IMG/VR virus record: IMGVR_UViG_3300048104_000063
Coordinates: 1 to 33,540 of that record
Origin: a virus
Strand: one strand, 5' to 3'
Length of the DNA: 33,540 bases
Under the pieces are notes generated by a model. The model worked only from the letters and a program-made list of their open reading frames with translations, had not been told where the DNA came from and made no database searches. A program made the translations under genes and the position numbers. This document shows, in pieces, positions 3,501-20,193 of the stretch (position 1 is the first letter of the stretch; each line of letters starts with the position of its first letter).

Positions 3501-3887
3501 GCTGGCATCCCTTACAATATGTTGTACAGGTTCTCCAATCAGATACTGAAGCAACCAACAGAGCGAGGAGGACGCAGTGCTTCTGACTACACCTTTCAAA
3601 CAATTCGTAACGCTAGTATTGAATACGCAGATACTGGACACTTTACTGTGGAAGTTACACCACGATTCCGAGACACATACAAGTACCCCTACAACCCAGC
3701 GTTGCTTGCTTCTATCTCCACTCTTAACGACTTTACACCTGAGAGCGGACACTTTAGATTTGCAGTACAAGCTCAACCTAATGAAGCAACTATTGAGATA
3801 AAGAGCGATTCAGCCTTGCCTTGTAAGCTGTTAGCTGCAGAGTTTGAGTCTATGGTTATACCGAGAGCTAAGAGATATGGAAGTTAG
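534..3887 (+). CDS. Tail tubular protein B / nozzle (T7 gp12-like), enlarged
   Basis: This protein forms the hexameric tail nozzle through which DNA and core proteins leave the virion. The N-terminus 'VPNLVQGISQQPDNLR' and the central 'FFFKNRLGILTDSNVIFSEA' are hallmarks of T7 gp12. At 1117 aa it is much longer than T7 gp12 (794 aa). Extra sequence includes a His-rich segment near residues 190-210 and two tandem repeats at about residues 555-660, inserted between the conserved 'NPFPSF' and 'RTINDIFFF' blocks. The repeats follow W-GG-Y-G-YRC-H-DATI-PT-YW, which resembles CBM5/12-type carbohydrate-binding modules. The ATG at 534 has no clear Shine-Dalgarno sequence. The gene overlaps the next one by 11 nt if that gene starts at 3877. 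The assignment is secure; the binding role of the insert is inference. Confidence 0.95.
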   Translation: MPLLVTSVPNLVQGISQQPDNLRYPGQSDEQINAWSTVVEGLVKRPPTEYVRKTENRVDTDNDLFTHFVKRDESNKYVVAVSINTTDPSLPKVSLGVLNTEDGERFPVDATATAASYLSGITNPREDLKALTVADYTFLVNKKKPVRSDPTLYSDPLRKEALIAVKLGDYEKAYSIYINGALVPLASALPGHSTASSSHHDYNHVGHGAQAATYVSGPADSSPKGLHADTEFIAKDLETCLQSSYGTSGTTANIGVTEVSVDAVNSSAGYFNRLGANIYTWWAFEKQYPVKLKFTVDQTIAGVTNSSAKGEAKVVDGSIVSLELTSVGTGYIESTDPTYVAPVLTFQEYFFTKAWWPYDGSHRLVSSVPTPTPPTAGEVSITIAPTPTFNIVREGSLIKVLSQSVDFSIRSSDGLADQGLGVIYKEVKSITDLPAECFNRFRVKVIGDAELEQDDYYVQFKTKDGEEFGEGSWVETEGWYLDDSDTTPQRGSASKFELNTMPIVLVPQLTGSNVTSFVLESPEESLNVEVPLTKGWRGRNAGDGLTNPFPSFTSTDGAFVIYGDFVTFGGNNYRCIRDHEDATIDPTNTEYWEQIADVPVGTGAWVGGTAYRERGYRCTTSHADATILPTDTDYWTAVDIAPPNTETWVGGETYTGDVNRTINDIFFFKNRLGILTDSNVIFSEADEYFNFFRTTTQQLLDSAPIDVGLSHTKVAQLQHALPFQEKLMLFSRQSQFVLRGADLLTPKTVSISPVTEYDISDNIDPVALGNYIYFPFKRDAFEGVYEYFVDNNTEVFEANEITAQVPKLIPSNITHLVGTASENMIVAKSSNDDYTLFVYKYYWQNKEKIQSAWMKFTYSRKIRGFDFIDSDLLLLTEDGQGLHLEKATMENGLVDDGLSYKLYLDSRVDSSQLTAAYNAASKTTTISGFPYDPGLTWDNITQTWENFGVPFGINHGIQIYTKGGTLKEFTRTSATSGTVSGDLSSTPFFAGIPYNMLYRFSNQILKQPTERGGRSASDYTFQTIRNASIEYADTGHFTVEVTPRFRDTYKYPYNPALLASISTLNDFTPESGHFRFAVQAQPNEATIEIKSDSALPCKLLAAEFESMVIPRAKRYGS

Positions 3888-4317
3888 AGTAGAGCAAGCA
3901 CAGCCTGATATGGATGCCTTTGACTTGTACGACGATATGAGGGAGGAAGACATGATTGAATGTATCGGTCTTATGCACCACCCTAAAGATGCAGTCGTTG
4001 AGTCCTTTGTATCGTCCTGTAAATGCTACAGTGTACGAAGTGAGGAAGGGTTGCACTGCTGCTTTGGTGTCAGTCGTAGGAGTGATGATATAGGGATTGT
4101 GTGGCTGCTTGGTACTAGGCAGATGCCAAAGATTCGTAAGTATTTCTTGAAGCACTCTAAGCAATATGTTGATGAGTTATTGGAAGGCTTTGACTACTTA
4201 ACAAATGTTGTAATGAAGACAAACTACCTTAGTTATCGGTGGTTAAAGTGGTTGGGTGCTGAGTTTAACGATTGCCAACTAGATGGTTATCAGTCATTTA
4301 TATTAAGGAGTAAGTAA
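3877..4317 (+). CDS. Internal core protein A (T7 gp13-like)
   Basis: A 146-residue protein at the exact position of T7 gene 13. It shares that protein's pattern: an 'ECIGL' stretch near the N-terminus, then 'WLLGTRQMPKIRKYFLKHSK' against T7 'WRLSGKAKRKFRKLIMEYRD', and 'YLSYRWLKWLGAEF' against 'HIRFLKTIGAVF'. T7 gp13 (138 aa) is needed for core assembly and resembles an acetyltransferase fold. No catalytic activity can be claimed here. The frame extends back to a TTG at 3844, but the ATG at 3877 overlaps the nozzle stop by only 11 nt and gives the usual length, so I chose it. Confidence 0.82.
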   Translation: MEVRVEQAQPDMDAFDLYDDMREEDMIECIGLMHHPKDAVVESFVSSCKCYSVRSEEGLHCCFGVSRRSDDIGIVWLLGTRQMPKIRKYFLKHSKQYVDELLEGFDYLTNVVMKTNYLSYRWLKWLGAEFNDCQLDGYQSFILRSK

Positions 4318-11265: not shown

Positions 11266-12795
11266 ATGGCCACCACTTACGTAGACTACACAGCGACAGC
11301 TTCGCAAACAGACTTTGCTTTTAACTTTGACTATCTGGAAGATGAACACGTAATAGTCGAGATAAACGGATCAGCTACGACTGAGTTCACTATTGTTACT
11401 TCACCTGCTAAGAAAGTAGTATTAAACACCGGAGCTACAGCAGGAGCTGTTGTAAGAGTTCGTCGTAAGAGTCAGCCTGATACTAACCTTGTAGATTTTG
11501 TAAATGGTTCTGTGTTAACGGAATCCGAACTAGACCGTGCTTACCTACACAATCGTTACTTAAACGAGGAGATAGCTGAGTTAAATGACGCTTCGTTACA
11601 GATAGAAGCAGGAGGCACGGACTGGGATGCACGGACTAAGAAGATAAAGAACTTAGCTGATCCTACTCTTACAACCGATGCTACAACTAAAGACTATGTA
11701 GACGGTAAGTTTAACCAAGCAGCTAGTGGTGCGTCTAACCCTCCTCTTAAGTGGGTGTTTACAGGCACAGCAGGAGCAGATACTACTTACACTGTTACAG
11801 GTGCTGAGATCAACGGAGACACTGCTTACGATGTAAGTATTGACGGATCGGTACTTGAACCTACTACAGACTACACGGTAGACCCTAACACTGACACACT
11901 CACGATAAAGACCACTCTTACGGGCGGTGAAGACATTGTCATTATTCAGCGTGGGTTTGGTATACCTATCAGCACAGGAGAGATAGGCAGTGCTCAGATA
12001 AGTGCTGACTCTATTACTACAGCTAAGATAGCAGACTCTGCTGTTACTACTCCTAAGATAGCGGATGCTGCTGTAACTACTGCTAAACTATCTTCAAACT
12101 CTGTTACTGCTAGTAAGATTTCTAACGGTAGCATTGATACCGACAAGATAGCTGACACTGCTGTTACAACGGCTAAGATAGCTGACAACGCTGTTACTAC
12201 TGATAAACTAGCTGATAATATTGGATTTGTACCTACAGGAACAGTGTCTGCTTTTGCAGGTAGTACAGCACCAACTGGTTATTTATTGTGTGACGGTAGT
12301 ACTGTTAGTCGCACAACATACACTAATTTAGCTGCTGTATTAGAAAACCCTTCATCACCGGGAAATTATCTATACGGTAACGGTGACGGTTCGACTACAT
12401 TTAATCTTCCTGACCTTCGTGGACGAGTAATTGCGGGGCAGGATGATATGGGAGGTTCTTCTGCTAACCGATTGACTGGGCAGACGGGTGGAGTTAATGG
12501 GGATACTTTGGGGGGCGAGGGTGGTTCTGAGACGCATACGCTTACGGAAGCTGATACTCCATCACACACACACTACGCAGTAAAGAAAAATACAACTTCC
12601 TTAGATGATTTTATATTAGCTGGAGATGAGGTATTAGCTGCATCAGGCCCAGCAAGTAATATTAATGAGAGGTACGCTCTCACAGAGACCACAGAAGGTG
12701 ATCCTGACACAGCTATAACATCTAGCACAGGCGGTGACCAAGCTCACAACAATGTCCAGCCTACCATCATTTTAAATTACATCATTAAGGCTTGA
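11266..12795 (+). CDS. Tail fibre, T7 gp17-type N-terminus with collar domain
   Basis: A 509-residue attachment fibre. Residues 1-115 are the T7 tail-fibre N-terminal domain that docks on the tail: YVDYTATASQTDFAFNFDYL, then 'VRVRRKSQPDTNLVDF' and 'LTESELDRAYLHNRYL'. 'KIKNLADPTLTTDATTKDYV' (about 125-145) is a common fibre linker. A 10-residue repeat array covers about 247-318. The C-terminal third is a phage tail collar domain: 'PTGYLLCDGSTVSRTTY', 'NLPDLRGRVIAGQDDMGG', 'HTLTEADTPSHTHY' and a terminal 'VQPTIILNYIIKA'. T7 itself has a different C-terminal domain. The fibre lies directly after the gp16-like gene, as in T7. Confidence 0.93.
   Translation: MATTYVDYTATASQTDFAFNFDYLEDEHVIVEINGSATTEFTIVTSPAKKVVLNTGATAGAVVRVRRKSQPDTNLVDFVNGSVLTESELDRAYLHNRYLNEEIAELNDASLQIEAGGTDWDARTKKIKNLADPTLTTDATTKDYVDGKFNQAASGASNPPLKWVFTGTAGADTTYTVTGAEINGDTAYDVSIDGSVLEPTTDYTVDPNTDTLTIKTTLTGGEDIVIIQRGFGIPISTGEIGSAQISADSITTAKIADSAVTTPKIADAAVTTAKLSSNSVTASKISNGSIDTDKIADTAVTTAKIADNAVTTDKLADNIGFVPTGTVSAFAGSTAPTGYLLCDGSTVSRTTYTNLAAVLENPSSPGNYLYGNGDGSTTFNLPDLRGRVIAGQDDMGGSSANRLTGQTGGVNGDTLGGEGGSETHTLTEADTPSHTHYAVKKNTTSLDDFILAGDEVLAASGPASNINERYALTETTEGDPDTAITSSTGGDQAHNNVQPTIILNYIIKA
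12004..12219 (+). repeat. Seven 10-residue (30-nt) repeats in the tail fibre shaft
   Basis: Inside the gp17-like gene the protein reads as consecutive decapeptides of the form D-S-A-V-T-T-A-K-I-A, with variants such as SNSVTASKIS and NGSIDTDKIA. The DNA copies are similar but not identical. Such T-x-K-I repeats are common in trimeric fibre shafts. Confidence 0.8.
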
Positions 12796-13410: not shown

Positions 13411-13632
13411 ATGCCGTTACGCCCTAGACCAGTCATACACCCGCTTACGTTCCAAAACAGAACGCTGTCTGTAACTGCTGCTGCGGAAGCTAAACAGAAC
13501 CAAGAGAAAGCGACAGCACTTGAACAACAAGTAGAGTCTTTAGAGAGTGATCCATTTTTTGTTACCATTGATGGCGGTGGCCCTGTGTTAGAAGATACTG
13601 ATATATTTGATGGAGGAAGTATAGATGCCTAG
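13411..13632 (+). CDS. Small tail-region protein with C-terminal 'FDGGSIDA'
   Basis: A 73-residue protein starting at the ATG one base after the previous stop; an upstream GTG at 13351 in the same frame overlaps the preceding gene and is less likely. The middle (residues about 22-48, Ala/Gln/Glu-rich) is helical and probably coiled coil. The C-terminus, 'DPFFVTIDGGGPVLEDTD' then 'FDGGSIDA', is a β-type motif often seen in structural proteins near tail fibres of marine phages. It overlaps the next gene by 8 nt. Probably virion-associated; function unknown. Confidence 0.65.
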   Translation: MPLRPRPVIHPLTFQNRTLSVTAAAEAKQNQEKATALEQQVESLESDPFFVTIDGGGPVLEDTDIFDGGSIDA

Positions 13633-13861
13633 TTTTACAAAACGTATACAATTAAGAAGAGGAACAGCGAGTAACTGGTCAGACGAGAACCCTGTGCTGC
13701 TCGAAGGAGAAGTAGCTATTGAGTTGGATAATAACCGTAATCGTATCAAGATAGGTGACGGTGTTACTCCTTGGAATGCTTTGCCTTACTTCCTAGACGC
13801 TCGTGAAGAAGAAGTAGGAGATCACACTGAGTTCCTTGAAGGCTTGACAGGTGATCCGTGA
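13625..13861 (+). CDS. Stand-alone Mtd N-terminal-like domain protein
   Basis: A 78-residue protein consisting almost entirely of one recognisable module: 'RIQLRRGTASNWSDENPVLL', 'GEVAIELDNNRNRIKIGDG' and 'VTPWNALPYF'. This is the N-terminal domain type of the Bordetella phage major tropism determinant and many fibres, which mediates attachment of the adhesin to the tail. Normally it heads a long receptor-binding protein; here it stands alone with a short acidic tail. It overlaps the preceding gene by 8 nt. Probably a fibre adaptor or tip component; no variable C-type lectin domain and no reverse transcriptase accompany it. Confidence 0.78.
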   Translation: MPSFTKRIQLRRGTASNWSDENPVLLEGEVAIELDNNRNRIKIGDGVTPWNALPYFLDAREEEVGDHTEFLEGLTGDP

Positions 13862-13907
13862 TGCTCTAACAAGAGTCGGATTTAACCTTAACAAATGAAA
13901 CAGAACA

Positions 13908-14102
13908 ATGAGTGTATGGTATCAAATGGGACAAAGCGTAAGAAACTTATTAATATCTCTTACTTCAACTAGCCAAGCTATATTGGACACTGAAAGTAAC
14001 ATAACTGCTAGAACTGAAGACACTTTGGGGACGATGGCTTTTGCTACTGATACCTCTAAGCTCTACGTTTTTACTGAGTCAGGGTGGGTTCACGCACAAT
14101 AA
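13908..14102 (+). CDS. Small 'QMGQ ... YVF..W' tail-adaptor-like protein
   Basis: A 64-residue protein with two parts. The N-terminus 'VWYQMGQSVRNLL' resembles the starts of the genes at 14150 and 16709. The C-terminal half, 'GTMAFATDTSKLYVFTESGW', is the short module found in several proteins of this phage. A 46-nt gap before the ATG holds no Shine-Dalgarno sequence. The double similarity suggests a small fibre-associated adaptor. Unlike its neighbour at 14150, the module lacks the Asp-Gly pair before the Trp (it has ESGW). Function inferred from modules only. Confidence 0.65.
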   Translation: MSVWYQMGQSVRNLLISLTSTSQAILDTESNITARTEDTLGTMAFATDTSKLYVFTESGWVHAQ

Positions 14103-14149
14103 GCTTTGACTTAATTTAATCACTAACATAAAACATATTAACAACAACT

Positions 14150-14407
14150 ATGGCAAATATACTTCAACAAATCGGACAGACAGTTAAGTCGAAGTTGGAT
14201 GACAAGGTCGATAAGTCGGATGCAGTTACAGACTTTCTTAAGTCTATACTTGGATTCCCTGAAGACACTGTTGCTCCTTCGGTGGACACTTCTACAAATA
14301 TAGCGGCTAGAACTAGCGACGACACAGGTACAATCATGTACGCTAGTGATACTTATGATATGTATGTGTTTGACGGCACTAACTGGCAAATCTTTAACAA
14401 CAGCTAA
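14150..14407 (+). CDS. Small 'QIGQ ... YVFDG.NW' tail-adaptor-like protein
   Basis: An 85-residue paralogue of the gene at 13908. It starts 'ILQQIGQTVKSKLDDKVDK', has a short helical linker, and ends in the module 'GTIMYASDTYDMYVFDGTNW'. Its 47-nt leader contains TAATCACTAAC, also found before the other QIGQ gene at 16709. The next gene follows after two bases, so it is probably cotranscribed with the LamG-like adhesin. Likely a fibre connector or stub; inference from module sharing. Confidence 0.65.
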   Translation: MANILQQIGQTVKSKLDDKVDKSDAVTDFLKSILGFPEDTVAPSVDTSTNIAARTSDDTGTIMYASDTYDMYVFDGTNWQIFNNS

Positions 14408-14409
14408 GA

Positions 14410-15321
14410 ATGAGTGATATTACATTAATTGACGACAGCGAGCAATCTTCGCTGGTAACTAACGGTCTCGCTAAGAATGGTGAGATGTATTTAAAGAAAG
14501 CAGGAAGCACCGACGCTGGTTCTATTGTTGTATATGACAGTGGAGCTTGGAAGACTTTTGCTAATGAGTATGATGCTGGTTTAAGTAACACATACAGCGT
14601 AGACTTTGACGGTACAAATGATATTGTATCAGGCCCAACTGTAGGAACTACTGTAGGCACTTGTTCAATGTGGTTCTACAATGACGATGTTATTACAACC
14701 GGTTCTACAGGTCAGACACTCCTGAACACCAAAAGTTCATATTTTGGAATTGTTTTAGGAAATCAGACTGGATTGACCAATGAAATAATAGCTATAAAAT
14801 ACCAACAAAGTGGCCAGTGGAGAACCATAGGGTATACCGGATCAGGATTATCGCTTGCAAGTGGTTGGCATCATATCATGACTGCATGGGTAAGTAGCTC
14901 TTCAACCAATCCCGGAAACCCCGGATATGATATATGGTTAGACGGTGTTAAAGTGGGTAACGATACGGCTAATACTGCTCCAACAGCACCCGATGTTTTA
15001 GCCAATAACGGTAACGGTTTTCATTTAGGTGCTCGATTTGGTACAGGCTCTATTTATCGTCCTTTTAACGGTAAGATTGACGAGTTCGCTGTTTGGTCTG
15101 GTAATGTTTCGGGTGATATTGCTAACATCTACAACAGTGGAGCAGGAGCTGTGGATTTAAATAGTTCAGGCGTTGTCGGAACGGCTCCAGAAATTTGGTG
15201 GAGAATGGGCGATAACGACGGAGGAACCGGAACAACCATTACCAACCAAGGATCATTAGGGTCAAGTGCTAACGGAACTCTCGCCAATAGCCCAACCTTC
15301 TCAACCGACGTACCTTCTTAA
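14410..15321 (+). CDS. LamG/concanavalin-like adhesin, copy 1
   Basis: A 303-residue protein. Residues 1-55 carry a variant of the short 'VVYDSGAW' module. From about 58 ('YSVDFDGTNDIV') to the C-terminus there is a LamG/concanavalin-like jelly-roll: 'GWHHIMTAWVSS', 'YDIWLDGVKVGND', 'FNGKIDEFAVW' and the closing 'IWWRMGDNDGGTGTTIT'. These domains usually bind glycans. A second copy lies at 15570 with well-kept edges and a diverged middle. A small partner gene follows after five bases. Probable receptor-binding protein. The alternative is a decoration protein on another virion surface. Confidence 0.8.
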   Translation: MSDITLIDDSEQSSLVTNGLAKNGEMYLKKAGSTDAGSIVVYDSGAWKTFANEYDAGLSNTYSVDFDGTNDIVSGPTVGTTVGTCSMWFYNDDVITTGSTGQTLLNTKSSYFGIVLGNQTGLTNEIIAIKYQQSGQWRTIGYTGSGLSLASGWHHIMTAWVSSSSTNPGNPGYDIWLDGVKVGNDTANTAPTAPDVLANNGNGFHLGARFGTGSIYRPFNGKIDEFAVWSGNVSGDIANIYNSGAGAVDLNSSGVVGTAPEIWWRMGDNDGGTGTTITNQGSLGSSANGTLANSPTFSTDVPS

Positions 15322-15326
15322 TAATT

Positions 15327-15566
15327 ATGAACGACAGACAATATGTTATAATAAACGCTGCTGATGTTTCTACCGTCAACTTTGATGACGTGCTTGAGAC
15401 TTCAGGAGATACACTAAGATACAATGTAGCAGGGGATGAAACCTTTGTTAAATACGAAGGAGCTAAACCTCGTTGCTTATACGGTAAAGACACACTGAGT
15501 TACTCAGCTATGCTTACTGTATTACAAGGAGAAGCTTGGACTGCACCAGAGGAGGAGGAACTATAA
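15327..15566 (+). CDS. Small partner protein of LamG adhesin, copy 1
   Basis: A 79-residue acidic protein directly behind the adhesin at 14410. Key stretches are 'YVIINAADVSTVNFDDVLET', 'SGDTLRYNVAGDETFVKYEG' and 'GEAWTAPEEEEL'. It is clearly homologous to the gene at 16449, which sits behind the second adhesin. I recall similar short proteins in tail regions of marine phages. Repeated pairing with a fibre gene suggests a cognate fibre-assembly factor or capping subunit, by analogy with tail fibre assembly proteins; this is inference. Translation is probably coupled to the adhesin. Confidence 0.72.
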   Translation: MNDRQYVIINAADVSTVNFDDVLETSGDTLRYNVAGDETFVKYEGAKPRCLYGKDTLSYSAMLTVLQGEAWTAPEEEEL

Positions 15567-15569
15567 GAC

Positions 15570-16436
15570 ATGGCTAAACTAGACTTAATTACATCATCCA
15601 CCCGTCCCGCTTCGCCAGCTGCTGGTAAAGCATACTTTGAGACGGACACTAATAAGATTATCGTGTGGGACGGTTCTGCTTGGACAGAGCTTGTTTCGGA
15701 CAATGCACCTGCTTCTTTCTCTAACGACTACAGCGTAGACTTTGACGGCAGTAATGATTATGTAGATGCTGGGTCAAGTCCTTCAGCACTAACCGTAGAA
15801 GGTTTATCTGTATGGTTTAGACCCGATGTTGCTTACGGTAGCGGTCCTAAATCTTTCTTATTAGGATTCGGGGGTTCGGATATAGGTATTGCTTTAGGTG
15901 GAGATTTCTTTGGTCCTGTCGCAGATGAAGTAATCACGGTTGTTAATATTAATCACTTATGGAGTTACGCAGGTAGTGGTTTAAGTATCTCGGCTAATAA
16001 TTGGCATCACTTGGGAATACGCTGGGAATCTTCTAGTAGTTCCACCAACTCAGGTAATGCAGGTTATGACATTTACTTGGACGGTACTAAAGTAGGAAAT
16101 TCTTTTGGCACTTATAGTTCAGGGACAGGTTCAAAAATGGCAACCCAAAGATTTACTGTGGCAGCGAGGAATAGAAACGGAGCTATCGCACAATATTATA
16201 ATGGTAAAGTAGATGGGTTAGGAATATTTACTTCAGCAGTATCTGAGTCTGATTTATTAGCTATGTATAATAGTGGTAATGGTCCTATTGATTTAACTTC
16301 ATATTCTCCTGCTTTGTGGTGGCGAATGGGAGATAATGACGGAGGAACCGGGACTACTATAACAGACCAAGGTAGCGGAGGCAATGACGCCACACTCACT
16401 AACGGCCCTACCTTCTCCTCTGACGTTCCTAGCTAA
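15570..16436 (+). CDS. LamG/concanavalin-like adhesin, copy 2
   Basis: A 288-residue paralogue of the gene at 14410. The N-terminal 45 residues carry a cleaner form of the short module: 'RPASPAAGKAYFETDTN' then 'IIVWDGSAWTELV'. The jelly-roll starts at 'YSVDFDGSNDYVDAG' and includes 'NNWHHLGIRWESS', 'YDIYLDGTKVGN' and 'YNGKVDGLGIF'. It ends with the same 'WWRMGDNDGGTGTTIT' signature and '(S)DVPS' as copy 1. The centre differs, which would suit different ligands. GAGGAGGA lies about 10 nt before the ATG, one of the better ribosome sites here. Probable second receptor-binding protein. Confidence 0.8.
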   Translation: MAKLDLITSSTRPASPAAGKAYFETDTNKIIVWDGSAWTELVSDNAPASFSNDYSVDFDGSNDYVDAGSSPSALTVEGLSVWFRPDVAYGSGPKSFLLGFGGSDIGIALGGDFFGPVADEVITVVNINHLWSYAGSGLSISANNWHHLGIRWESSSSSTNSGNAGYDIYLDGTKVGNSFGTYSSGTGSKMATQRFTVAARNRNGAIAQYYNGKVDGLGIFTSAVSESDLLAMYNSGNGPIDLTSYSPALWWRMGDNDGGTGTTITDQGSGGNDATLTNGPTFSSDVPS

Positions 16437-16448
16437 CCCTTACTAACT

Positions 16449-16682
16449 ATGAGAAACTACGTAATCATTGACGCTTCGGAAGTTCCTTCTGTAGACTTTA
16501 ATAACGTTCTTGAAACCTCAGCATCTACCCTTCGGTATAATGTTGCAGGAGATAAGACATTTGTTAAATATGAAGGAGCTATGCCACCTTTTCTATTAGG
16601 TAAAGACACTTACAGCCACGCTCAAATCCTTGAGGTTTTAGACGGTGAAGAGTGGACTGCTCCTATGGAAGATTTATTATAA
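16449..16682 (+). CDS. Small partner protein of LamG adhesin, copy 2
   Basis: A 77-residue paralogue of the gene at 15327. By eye well over half of the residues match, including 'TLRYNVAGD.TFVKYEGA.P' and 'WTAP'. It follows the second adhesin after 12 nt. The N-terminus 'YVIIDASEVPSVDFNNVLET' is better kept than the region after 'GKD', which may be the part that fits the cognate adhesin. Proposed role: fibre assembly or capping factor, from its repeated pairing; not proven. Confidence 0.72.
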   Translation: MRNYVIIDASEVPSVDFNNVLETSASTLRYNVAGDKTFVKYEGAMPPFLLGKDTYSHAQILEVLDGEEWTAPMEDLL

Positions 16683-16708
16683 TCACTAACTAACTAAATA
16701 CTAATAAT

Positions 16709-17944
16709 ATGCCAGATACATCATCCATATTCTATCAAATTGGTCAATCGACCAAAAGTGCTATTGCAACAGAAGAAACACGGGCGTTGGCTGCAGAGGC
16801 TACACTTCAGACGAACATCAATTCTGAAGCCTCCAGTCGTGCAAGTGCTGATACTACATTGCAATCCAACATCGACAGCGAAGCTTCAAGCCGTTCGGCT
16901 GCTGACTCTACCTTACAAGGTAACATTGACACAGAAGCAAGCAGCCGAGCATCCGCTGACTCCGCTATTCAGTCTGAACTTGACGCTACTCAAAGTGGTG
17001 CTGGTCTTGCTGCTGGTGGTTCGTACTCCGCTAACTCTTCCACCAACTACATTACTTCGGTAACTACATTGGTTGGAGCTGACGAAGCTCTTGACGGACA
17101 AATCAAAACTAACGCTGACGCTATCTCTTCTGAAGCAAGTACTCGTGCATCTGCTGATTCCGCTTTACAAGCTGAGATTGACGCTGAAGAAACAGCTCGT
17201 GCATCTGCCGACACAACTCTTCAAAGCAACATCACAAGTGAAGCTTCCTCAAGAGCCAGTGCTGATACGACACTCCAAAGCAACATTGATTCTGAAGAGA
17301 CTGCCCGTCAAGCTGCTGACTCCACGCTTCAAACAAACATTGACGACGAAGAAACAGCCAGAACTTCCGCTGATACGACTTTACAGTCCAATATCGACGC
17401 TGAAGAAACTGCTCGTATCGCTGCTGTTAGTGGTGAGGCTACAGCTAGAGCTTCTGCTGACACGACTCTTCAGTCTAACATTGACTCTGAAGCTTCGACT
17501 GCTCGTGCTGCTGAATCGGCTCTTGACGCTGCTAAAGCTAATCTTGCTGGTGCTTCCTTCACAGGAGACGTAAGCGGAACAAACCTTGTCCTTAGCGGAA
17601 ACTTAACTGTTAACGGTACAACTACTTCCGTTCAAACAACAAACTCCGAGATCAAAGACTCTATTCTTTTGATCAACGACGGTGCTGCTGGTTCAACTAA
17701 CAACTCAAACGACGCTGGTCTTATCATTGAGCGTGGTACAGGTGACGGTGGAAACATTGCTGCTGTATACGACGAAGGTATCGATAAGTTTGCGTTCTAT
17801 AAAACATCCGCTACTTCTGCTTCTACTGACATCAGTGGAGACGACGGAAGTGCTGAGTTGATCGACGTTAAAGCAAACGACGTTGTTCTTGGAGACGGTA
17901 ACAATCTTGGTTCATTGGCTGACTTTACAGCTGCAATGGCGTAA
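16709..17944 (+). CDS. Long coiled-coil repeat tail fibre
   Basis: A 411-residue fibre. The N-terminus 'SIFYQIGQSTKSAIATEE' shares the QIGQ motif of the small proteins at 13908 and 14150, a possible common docking element. Residues about 22-275 are mostly 18-residue repeats of the type E-T-A-R-A-S-A-D-T-T-L-Q-S-N-I-D-x-E in two blocks, split by a Gly/Ser-rich insert ('GAGLAAGGSYSANSS'). The C-terminal part, 'SFTGDVSGTNLVLSGNLTV' and 'DSILLINDGAAGSTNNSNDA', is a β-rich tip seen in many marine phage fibres. Synonymous codons vary strongly between repeats. Its leader contains TAATCACTAAC. Confidence 0.85.
   Translation: MPDTSSIFYQIGQSTKSAIATEETRALAAEATLQTNINSEASSRASADTTLQSNIDSEASSRSAADSTLQGNIDTEASSRASADSAIQSELDATQSGAGLAAGGSYSANSSTNYITSVTTLVGADEALDGQIKTNADAISSEASTRASADSALQAEIDAEETARASADTTLQSNITSEASSRASADTTLQSNIDSEETARQAADSTLQTNIDDEETARTSADTTLQSNIDAEETARIAAVSGEATARASADTTLQSNIDSEASTARAAESALDAAKANLAGASFTGDVSGTNLVLSGNLTVNGTTTSVQTTNSEIKDSILLINDGAAGSTNNSNDAGLIIERGTGDGGNIAAVYDEGIDKFAFYKTSATSASTDISGDDGSAELIDVKANDVVLGDGNNLGSLADFTAAMA
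16772..17530 (+). repeat. About eleven 54-nt (18-residue) coiled-coil repeats
   Basis: Repeats inside the fibre gene, consensus E-(T/A)-(A/S)-(R/S)-(A/R)-(S/A)-A-D-(T/S)-T-L-Q-(S/T)-N-I-D-x, four before and about seven after a Gly/Ser-rich insert. One copy is truncated (EETARIAAVSG). Protein copies are nearly uniform while codons differ between copies. Confidence 0.85.
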
Positions 17945-17965
17945 GACTTAAACAACTAGCTAACA

Positions 17966-18160
17966 ATGAGTACGAAAAAGAAAAAGGATACATTAGTTCC
18001 TATTAATTTTCGTCTCACTAGCTCACAAAAGAGGGAGGTCGCTGGCATCGCATCAGATTTGGGTGTCAGCACCTCGGCTCTTTTACACTCGTGGATTACT
18101 AGAATCTTAAACAACATGAACGGATTCGGTGACCATGACCAGCTACTGAGAGATAAATAA
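17966..18160 (+). CDS. Small ribbon-helix-helix-like protein
   Basis: A 64-residue protein. A Lys-rich N-terminus (STKKKKD) leads into 'VPINFRLTSSQKREVAGIAS' and 'LGVSTSALLHSWITRILNN', a β-strand followed by two helices as in Arc/CopG ribbon-helix-helix DNA-binding proteins. It lies between the coiled-coil fibre and small terminase, 7 nt before the latter. T7 has no such gene here. It might regulate late transcription or aid packaging; both are inference. No operator is evident. Confidence 0.6.
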   Translation: MSTKKKKDTLVPINFRLTSSQKREVAGIASDLGVSTSALLHSWITRILNNMNGFGDHDQLLRDK

Positions 18161-18166
18161 CAACGT

Positions 18167-18409
18167 ATGAAGTCATTCAAAGAACTAGGTAAGATGCACG
18201 CAGCTACGGCTGACTTGTTATCAGATTCTGTTAAGTTCATGAAAGCCACCGAGGAGTACAACCCTGCATTGATTAACTGTGTGATTAAGTTCCTTAAAGA
18301 TAATCGTGTTGAGTGTATGTCCGAAGAAGGAACTCCTCTAAATGATTTGAAAATCGAAGCTCTACCTTTTTTAGAAGACCCAGAGGTTCAACGGCAAATC
18401 GGCAAATAA
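18167..18409 (+). CDS. terS: Terminase small subunit (T7 gp18-like)
   Basis: An 80-residue helical protein upstream of large terminase, as in T7, where gp18 (89 aa) recognises DNA for packaging. It shows gp18-type features: 'ADLLSDSVKFMKATEEYNPA' and 'LINCVIKFLKDNRVEC' compare with T7 'RMLADLSDDRSPQLYNAIN'. The C-terminus is acidic. It is followed by a terminator-like hairpin rather than directly by the large subunit. Assignment by position, size and weak similarity. Confidence 0.75.
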   Translation: MKSFKELGKMHAATADLLSDSVKFMKATEEYNPALINCVIKFLKDNRVECMSEEGTPLNDLKIEALPFLEDPEVQRQIGK

Positions 18410-18489: not shown

Positions 18490-20193
18490 ATGAAGACTAA
18501 GAAAGCACCAACACCTGTAGAGATACCACCACAGCTAAAGAACTTTAAGAACTTCCTGTACATTATATGGAAGCATCTTAACCTGCCTGATCCTACTCCT
18601 TTGCAGTATGACCTCGCTGACTATATGCAACATGGCCCGAAGAGGTCTGTTATCATGGCGTTTAGAGGAGTAGGTAAGTCGTGGATATGTAGTGCCTATG
18701 TAGTACATCAGTTACTGCTAGACCCCACTTTAAACATCCTTGTAGTGTCTGCCAGTAAGAACAGAGCAGATGACTTCTCCACCTTTACATTGAAGATCAT
18801 ACACGACATACCTATTCTTCAAGGACTCATACCAACAGATAACCAACGATTCAGTAAGATAGCTTTTGATGTAGGCCCTGCTCCTGCTGCTCACGCTCCC
18901 TCTGTTAAATCACTGGGTATATCGTCACAGCTTACCGGGTCGCGTGCTGACATCATCGTAGCAGACGACATAGAAGTACCCAACAACTCCGCTACACAAG
19001 GTATGAGAGACAAGCTGGATGAGCAGGTAAAGGAGTTTGAAGCTATTGTTAAACCACTGGACTCCTCCCGCATCCTCTTCCTTGGTACTCCTCAGTGTGA
19101 AGACTCTATCTATAACAAACTGCGAGACAGGGGCTACAACGCCCGTATATGGCCTTCTGAGTATCCACAGCTGTCTACCCTTGCCTCACACTACGGAGAC
19201 GATCTAGCACCCTTTATAGGCGATAACACATCAGAAGAGACAGAAGGTACAACTACAGAGCCTCTACGGTTCTCTGATATAGACCTAGAAGAGCGTAAGA
19301 TGTCGTACGGCAGGACAGGGTATGCTTTGCAGTTCATGCTTAATCCTCGGCTATCTGATGCTGACCGCTACCCCTTAAAGATTAACGACCTTATTGTTAT
19401 GGACGTAGATGTGGATGTAGCTCCTGAGAAAGTCATGTGGACATCTGATCCTACTTTTGCTGACAGAGACCTACCTAATGTGGGACTGAGGGCTGACCGC
19501 TACCACCGACCTCTTAAAACAATAGGAGATATGATACCTTACACTGGTTCTGTGTTATCTATTGACCCTAGTGGTAGAGGTAAGGATGAGACGGGGTACG
19601 CTGTGGTAAAGATGTTGAACGGTCAGCTGTATGTTCCTGACGCTGGCGGACTGAGAGGTGGCTACGATACACAAACCCTACAACAACTTGTCGGTATAGC
19701 TAAACATAACAAAGTTAACCAAGTAGTTATAGAGTCTAACTTTGGGGACGGTATGTTCATGGAGCTGATTAAGCCTCTGTTTCGTACGACTTACCCGGTA
19801 ACAATAGAAGAAGTAAGACATAACAAACAGAAGGAGCTTAGGATAGTCGATGTGATGGAACCTGTACTGAATGCTCACAGACTGGTGTTTGATCCTTCTG
19901 TAGTAACATTAGACTATAAGTCTGCTCAGGCTTACCCTATAGAGATACAAACGAAGTATATGCTATTTTACCAACTATCTAGGATAACAAGAGAGAAGAA
20001 CAGTCTGACGCATGACGACCGCTTAGACGCTCTTTCTATAGCTGTAGCTTACTGGGTACAACAGATGGCAGCAGACGTTAACCTAAATATGCAGGAGAGG
20101 AAGCAGGAGCTACTACAACAAGAGTTAGATAGCTTCACTGATAGCTTTCACAAAAGAAGCTTTAGCGGTAACAAAGCGTTACTGTGGTCTTAA
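18490..20193 (+). CDS. terL: Terminase large subunit (T7 gp19-like)
   Basis: A 567-residue ATP-driven packaging motor and nuclease, close in length to T7 gp19 (586 aa). Walker A is 'AFRGVGKSW' at residues 57-65 (Lys63). Walker B is 'DIIVADDIEVP' at about 153-163. Other gp19 signatures are 'GISSQLTGSRAD', 'LFLGTPQ', 'FMLNPRLSDADRYPL' and the nuclease motif 'SIDPSGRGKDETGYAV' (Asp359). 'VIESNFGDGMF' and 'HDDRLDAL' complete the nuclease domain. The ATG follows a terminator-like hairpin with no gap, so expression probably depends on read-through. The gene closes the late block; a long non-coding stretch follows. Confidence 0.97.
   Translation: MKTKKAPTPVEIPPQLKNFKNFLYIIWKHLNLPDPTPLQYDLADYMQHGPKRSVIMAFRGVGKSWICSAYVVHQLLLDPTLNILVVSASKNRADDFSTFTLKIIHDIPILQGLIPTDNQRFSKIAFDVGPAPAAHAPSVKSLGISSQLTGSRADIIVADDIEVPNNSATQGMRDKLDEQVKEFEAIVKPLDSSRILFLGTPQCEDSIYNKLRDRGYNARIWPSEYPQLSTLASHYGDDLAPFIGDNTSEETEGTTTEPLRFSDIDLEERKMSYGRTGYALQFMLNPRLSDADRYPLKINDLIVMDVDVDVAPEKVMWTSDPTFADRDLPNVGLRADRYHRPLKTIGDMIPYTGSVLSIDPSGRGKDETGYAVVKMLNGQLYVPDAGGLRGGYDTQTLQQLVGIAKHNKVNQVVIESNFGDGMFMELIKPLFRTTYPVTIEEVRHNKQKELRIVDVMEPVLNAHRLVFDPSVVTLDYKSAQAYPIEIQTKYMLFYQLSRITREKNSLTHDDRLDALSIAVAYWVQQMAADVNLNMQERKQELLQQELDSFTDSFHKRSFSGNKALLWS

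Follow-up and report, generated by a model that had tools for sequence, protein, structure and literature searches.

In the Mtd/diversity-generating retroelement systems and in the invertible systems of the Gin/Cin type, a constant scaffold is combined with a variable receptor-binding part. Another described arrangement is the tail fibre and chaperone module (T4 gp37/gp38, Mu S/U, or Alteromonas V22/A5), in which an adhesin gene is followed by a small dedicated gene, and which is common to distantly related phages and prone to recombination. In the A5/V22 module the chaperone has been described as cognate, with matched insertions in fibre and chaperone (PMC10579305). The locus studied here shares with these modules the gene order, the presence in distantly related phages and the tendency to recombine, with a LamG gene (a putative adhesin) in first place and a small partner gene encoded directly downstream, as in Tfa/gp38-type modules. 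It differs in that the heads are of the LamG/pentraxin fold, in that no similarity of the partner to known chaperone families could be detected and in that the partner is constant: whereas in Tfa/gp38-type modules such as A5/V22 the specificity of the small protein follows the variable head, here the partner keeps its site and the bodies change. Unlike in the Mtd and Gin/Cin systems, whole bodies are replaced and the two units have the same, direct orientation. Both lie head to tail on the + strand, rather than as inverted copies flanked by recombination sites as in Mu/P1-type cassettes, and the window proteins that were scanned included neither a reverse transcriptase nor an invertase.

The window, i.e., the whole stretch of DNA analysed, is a virus record of 33,540 bases classed as linear. 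It belongs to a marine T7-like podovirus, with T7-like markers such as a T7-type RNA polymerase, SSB, primase-helicase, DNA polymerase A and exonuclease, plus a tail tubular protein and a T7-type tail fibre N-terminus; its closest terminase matches are from an uncultured marine phage and roseophages (61–65%). The double locus lies between the tail fibre gene (11266–12795) and the terminase (18490–20193), and its genes follow one another in the order LamG 1, partner 1, LamG 2, partner 2, separated by intergenic gaps of 5, 3, and 12 bp (Table 1). All four ORFs are thus in place on one strand, as the preliminary description had it when it recognized two head-to-tail copies of a gene pair. The LamG proteins are 43% identical in amino acids (289 columns, E 2e-51) and both contain YSVDFDG.ND and WWRMGDNDGGTGTTIT, and the two partners are 64% identical (76 aa, E 9e-36), in agreement with the early remark that the small protein is well conserved. 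The pattern of kept jelly-roll edges and a diverged middle, also noticed then, holds in an alignment of 62 relatives, where conservation is 0.72 in SNxYSVxFDG, 0.6–0.77 in the C-terminal 78 residues and mostly 0.2–0.35 in the middle (residues ~91–210), the surroundings of WHH excepted. The proposed tandem duplication stands as an event of the distant past but not as a fresh one. In the partner tree each partner is nearer to its same-position counterparts from other phages than to the other partner of the window (partner 1 is at a distance of 0.075 from its nearest relative, partner 1 of contig L001, and of 0.96 from partner 2). A recent tandem duplication of the pair is ruled out by this tree, in which the partners form two old site-specific lineages common to related phages, and a recent duplication within a genome is apparent only in contig L061.

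Table 1. Features of the double LamG/partner locus and of the small ORFs upstream of it (positions in the window).
Feature	Positions	Strand	Remarks
64-aa ORF	13908..14102	+	anchor-like small domain only, without LamG, without partner
85-aa ORF	14150..14407	+	anchor-like small domain only
LamG 1 gene	14410-15321	+	
Site 1 anchor	14410..14592	+	N-terminal ~61 aa of LamG 1, small domain with STDAGSIVVYDSGAWKTF
LamG 1 body	14593..15195	+	exchangeable, begins YSVDFDG; homologous to LamG 2
LamG 1 tail	15196..15318	+	conserved at the C-terminus, WWRMGDNDGGTGTTIT...PTFSTDVPS; belongs to the fold and is exchanged together with the body
Partner 1	15327-15566	+	79 aa, site 1 lineage
LamG 2 gene	15570-16436	+	
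Site 2 anchor	15570..15728	+	N-terminal 53 aa of LamG 2, TSSTRPASPAAGKAYFETDTNKIIVWDGSAWTEL
LamG 2 body	15729..16316	+	PF13385; AF2 pLDDT 88
LamG 2 tail	16317..16433	+	conserved C-terminal tail
Partner 2	16449-16682	+	77 aa, site 2 lineage; AF2 pLDDT 91, small alpha/beta domain

The Pfam family Laminin_G_3 (PF13385) was found on LamG 2 with E 4e-10 and 40.4 bits, above the gathering cut-off of 27.6; LamG 1 alone stayed below threshold in the Pfam scan, and a tblastn search of LamG 2 against the reference phage collection gave zero matches. Apart from its first ~50 residues, the LamG 2 model (mean pLDDT 88) aligns in full with the LamG domains of CRP, SAP, PTX3, PAPP-A and dimethylformamidase (Z 17–19.6), for instance residues 50–288 with CRP 3–206 at Z 17.4. 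The CRP, SAP and PTX3 chains are aligned almost fully from N to C terminus (Z 17–18), and the predicted beta-sandwich corresponds end to end to that of the pentraxin-fold lectins, including PAPP-A LamG, with the same strand order, although the phage protein carries an N-terminal anchor-like segment and the sequence identity is 10–14%. Segments similar to the site 2 anchor were also found in hypothetical proteins of cyanophages and of Streptomyces and Mycobacterium phages. When canonical phage LamG proteins were searched with a profile of the C-terminal tails, it matched (best E 3.8e-6) the stretch that leads up to the FDG strand. In the marine phage LamG proteins of S-SKS1 and immuto, which likewise have a LamG domain and the partner directly downstream, the segment GSGTTWTDLSGNGNNGTLTNGPTYS precedes the FDG strand, whereas the homologous segment of the window type is C-terminal. 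By sequence, the LamG of the window type is therefore circularly permuted with respect to the canonical phage LamG.

The partner matches no family in Pfam or NCBIfam. Chaperone families gave nothing at E<=1 in Pfam or at E<=0.1 in NCBIfam, and the only match in PHROGs was a weak one to phrog_25155 (best E 0.0014), the function of which is not annotated. Its AF2 model is a confident, compact small fold with a mean pLDDT of 91. It resembles 11 viral models of uncharacterised proteins at E<1e-3 and nothing convincing among the solved structures of the PDB (best E 0.92, Z 3.1); no resemblance to known chaperones was found by sequence or by fold. One structural match (E 1.6e-4) is to a predicted protein from an algal virus, Pyramimonas orientalis virus. 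The comparison of partner 1 with its counterpart in L001 (dN/dS 0.029/0.102) points to purifying constraint on the partner.

Scanned against IMG/VR, the partner recovered 80 loci, and a pattern search with one conserved peptide of the family gave 423 places. A set of 201 partner ORFs was reduced to 156 distinct cassettes and, leaving aside 8 without upstream DNA, 148 were scored; the counts include related phages and describe our sample rather than independent events. A LamG ORF lies directly upstream of the partner in all but two of these 148 cassettes (in a few, just a short LamG end is visible where the contig starts), and an independent Pfam scan detected Laminin_G_3 in 59 out of 63 diverse proteins upstream of the partner. 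One exception is the third copy in L065 (4916–5286), a head-deleted cassette where a 44-aa anchor stub replaces the LamG gene, the body being gone and the partner intact. The other is L078, with a 72-aa ORF (3772–3990) between the LamG gene and the partner; this LamG gene has another C-terminus, and the intervening ORF is possibly a second type of helper. No ORF joining LamG and partner was seen in the 171 loci examined, in which the longer partner ORFs are start-codon extensions. The same LamG–partner order is present in two isolates distant from the window, Synechococcus phage S-SKS1 and Flavobacterium phage immuto.

In the reverse search, the partner was present behind 79 of 86 LamG genes with a WRMGD tail and room downstream. 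The seven without it, two of which directly precede a portal or portal-like gene (L194:3995–4843 and L207:1247–2092), indicate that the partner is dispensable for some LamG proteins of this kind. The partner also follows canonical LamG proteins that lack a WRMGD tail, which means that other docking sites are possible; this, together with the tails lacking a partner, weakens the idea of WRMGD as its exclusive docking site. Among 195 Verrucomicrobiota genomes searched there was one clear match to the partner, and for all its 47 LamG domains one Verrucomicrobia genome has a single partner, adjoining one LamG gene. The partner could in principle be physically unrelated to LamG, either a regulator or a passenger retained as the flank of an exchange site, and both the LamG genes without partner and the fact that it stays in place when bodies are exchanged (see below) agree with this. 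We find it improbable, since the adjacency to LamG persists where the genes further downstream are of many unrelated kinds (portal, fibre, spanin-like, and others) and also in S-SKS1 and immuto, where the LamG architecture differs, a breadth that is not expected of a mere passenger. The partner family is widespread in phages and so far undescribed; no description of a LamG phage adhesin with a small partner was found in the literature searched.

Contig L001 aligns with window positions 13748–18198 at ~80% identity, and we compared the genes of both sites in 50-nt steps. The L001 site-1 gene is 100% identical to window site 1 in the first 100 nt, then 96% and 77%, and its LamG body differs; this body and most of the tail are instead mostly 96–100% nt identical to window site 2 (98% aa between bodies), and the partner region is 92–100% nt identical to window site 1. 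At site 2 the L001 anchor is 97–100% nt identical to that of the window over the first ~150 nt and the partner is nearly identical, with a body that is just 26–56% identical over most of its length. Among 55 cassettes with complete anchors compared pairwise, 39 pairs exceed 80% identity in both anchor and partner, and in 38 of them body identity is <40%. Body identity is >70% in seven pairs, each of which differs in anchor (0.11–0.62) and in partner (0.53–0.69). Mantel correlations were 0.48 for anchor and partner, 0.42 for tail and partner, and 0.23 for body and partner. The LamG 1 body is 78% aa identical to that of L016, which sits on an unrelated anchor, and the exchanged stretch has like borders in all the further swap pairs (L052/L107, L002/L010, L016/window, and L033/window), running from the junction of anchor and LamG to the LamG stop codon. 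At the sequence level, these comparisons demonstrate that bodies have been replaced as a unit, from site to site within one phage type as well as from one phage type to another, and that each site passes on its own anchor and partner.

Most of the contigs compared are metagenomic fragments, L001 itself being a short one, and the near identity of its site-1 body to the window site-2 body might raise the suspicion that the mosaics are chimeras of metagenome assembly rather than natural swaps. We consider this very improbable, as the other swap pairs are only 78–91% identical in the body and come from different samples and phage types. Their bodies have diverged by 9–22% since the exchange, which assembly chimeras cannot explain. 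Besides, nearly all contigs would need to be chimeric to generate the pattern seen in 38 of 39 pairs, and distinct partner lineages are maintained at the two sites. The preliminary description had pictured an adhesin and a dedicated partner travelling together in an expandable array. The dedication to LamG is borne out, partner homologues lying mostly away from adhesins not having been seen, and copy number was found to vary, with 1 to 4 partners per contig and the duplication in L061. The joint travel proved wrong in detail, because the body travels while anchor and partner stay, and in L065 the body alone has been deleted.

The codons of YSV.F are far more uniform than the background, with a same-codon frequency of 0.85 against 0.32 expected and GTA used in 35 of 38 sequences, and those of the right-hand motifs are mostly near background. 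This uniformity indicates that the left edge (TAC AGC GTA ... TTT) is conserved as DNA besides protein, an indication rather than a test given that the 38 sequences are partly related; the right edge appears to be conserved mainly as protein. The left edge may be a joint for recombination, and its conservation as DNA is also consistent with descent of the edge. At this left edge of the body, TACAGCGTAGACTTT (window 14593–14607 and 15729–15743) is conserved at the DNA level across cassettes.

Our preferred reading, which we think probably right, regards each unit as a socket into which different lectin adhesins can be placed, the constant partner being a general cap or assembly factor. The N-terminal anchor would attach the LamG protein to the virion, and the body, with its predicted LamG/pentraxin fold, would be the variable head and probably bind host glycans. 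The product of the small gene would serve any LamG body placed in its site, most likely by helping the LamG head to assemble or by capping it transiently. More tentatively, and with somewhat less than even confidence, the whole family of ~75 aa partners could be a universal licensing/assembly partner for LamG heads, the cassettes being plug-in sites in which heads are exchanged via the DNA-conserved left joint, independently of chaperone and anchor. We rank as main rival a role of the partner as a permanent virion subunit (e.g., a collar, foot, or tip on each LamG multimer) instead of an assembly factor. Its strict adjacency and strong conservation, its nature as a compact soluble domain, and the L065 copy, where anchor and partner persist without a LamG body as though forming a base, would all suit such a subunit. 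We nevertheless judge it rather unlikely, since arrays that mix partnered and partnerless LamG genes are better suited to a trans-acting factor than to a fixed 1:1 component; no virion proteomics was found in the literature searched. If the partner is indeed an assembly factor or cap for exchangeable heads, host-binding sites of uncultured marine phages would have a common marker gene, and a family left blank by current libraries would gain an annotation. Adhesin heads would then change while the helper protein stays constant, and the portable parts of a phage adhesin would become directly testable.

Upstream of site 1, the 64-aa and 85-aa ORFs are kept in 8 out of 8 relatives inspected. Together with ORF 13625, which has a match to Mtd_N (PF18454, 1.7e-13), they apparently share small domains like those of the LamG anchors (13625–14407), and up to five anchor-like units appear in a row when the LamG anchors are counted as well. 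The proteins starting at 13908, 14150, and 16709 have a common opening motif (YQMGQS, QQIGQT, and YQIGQS, respectively), perhaps a shared docking signal.
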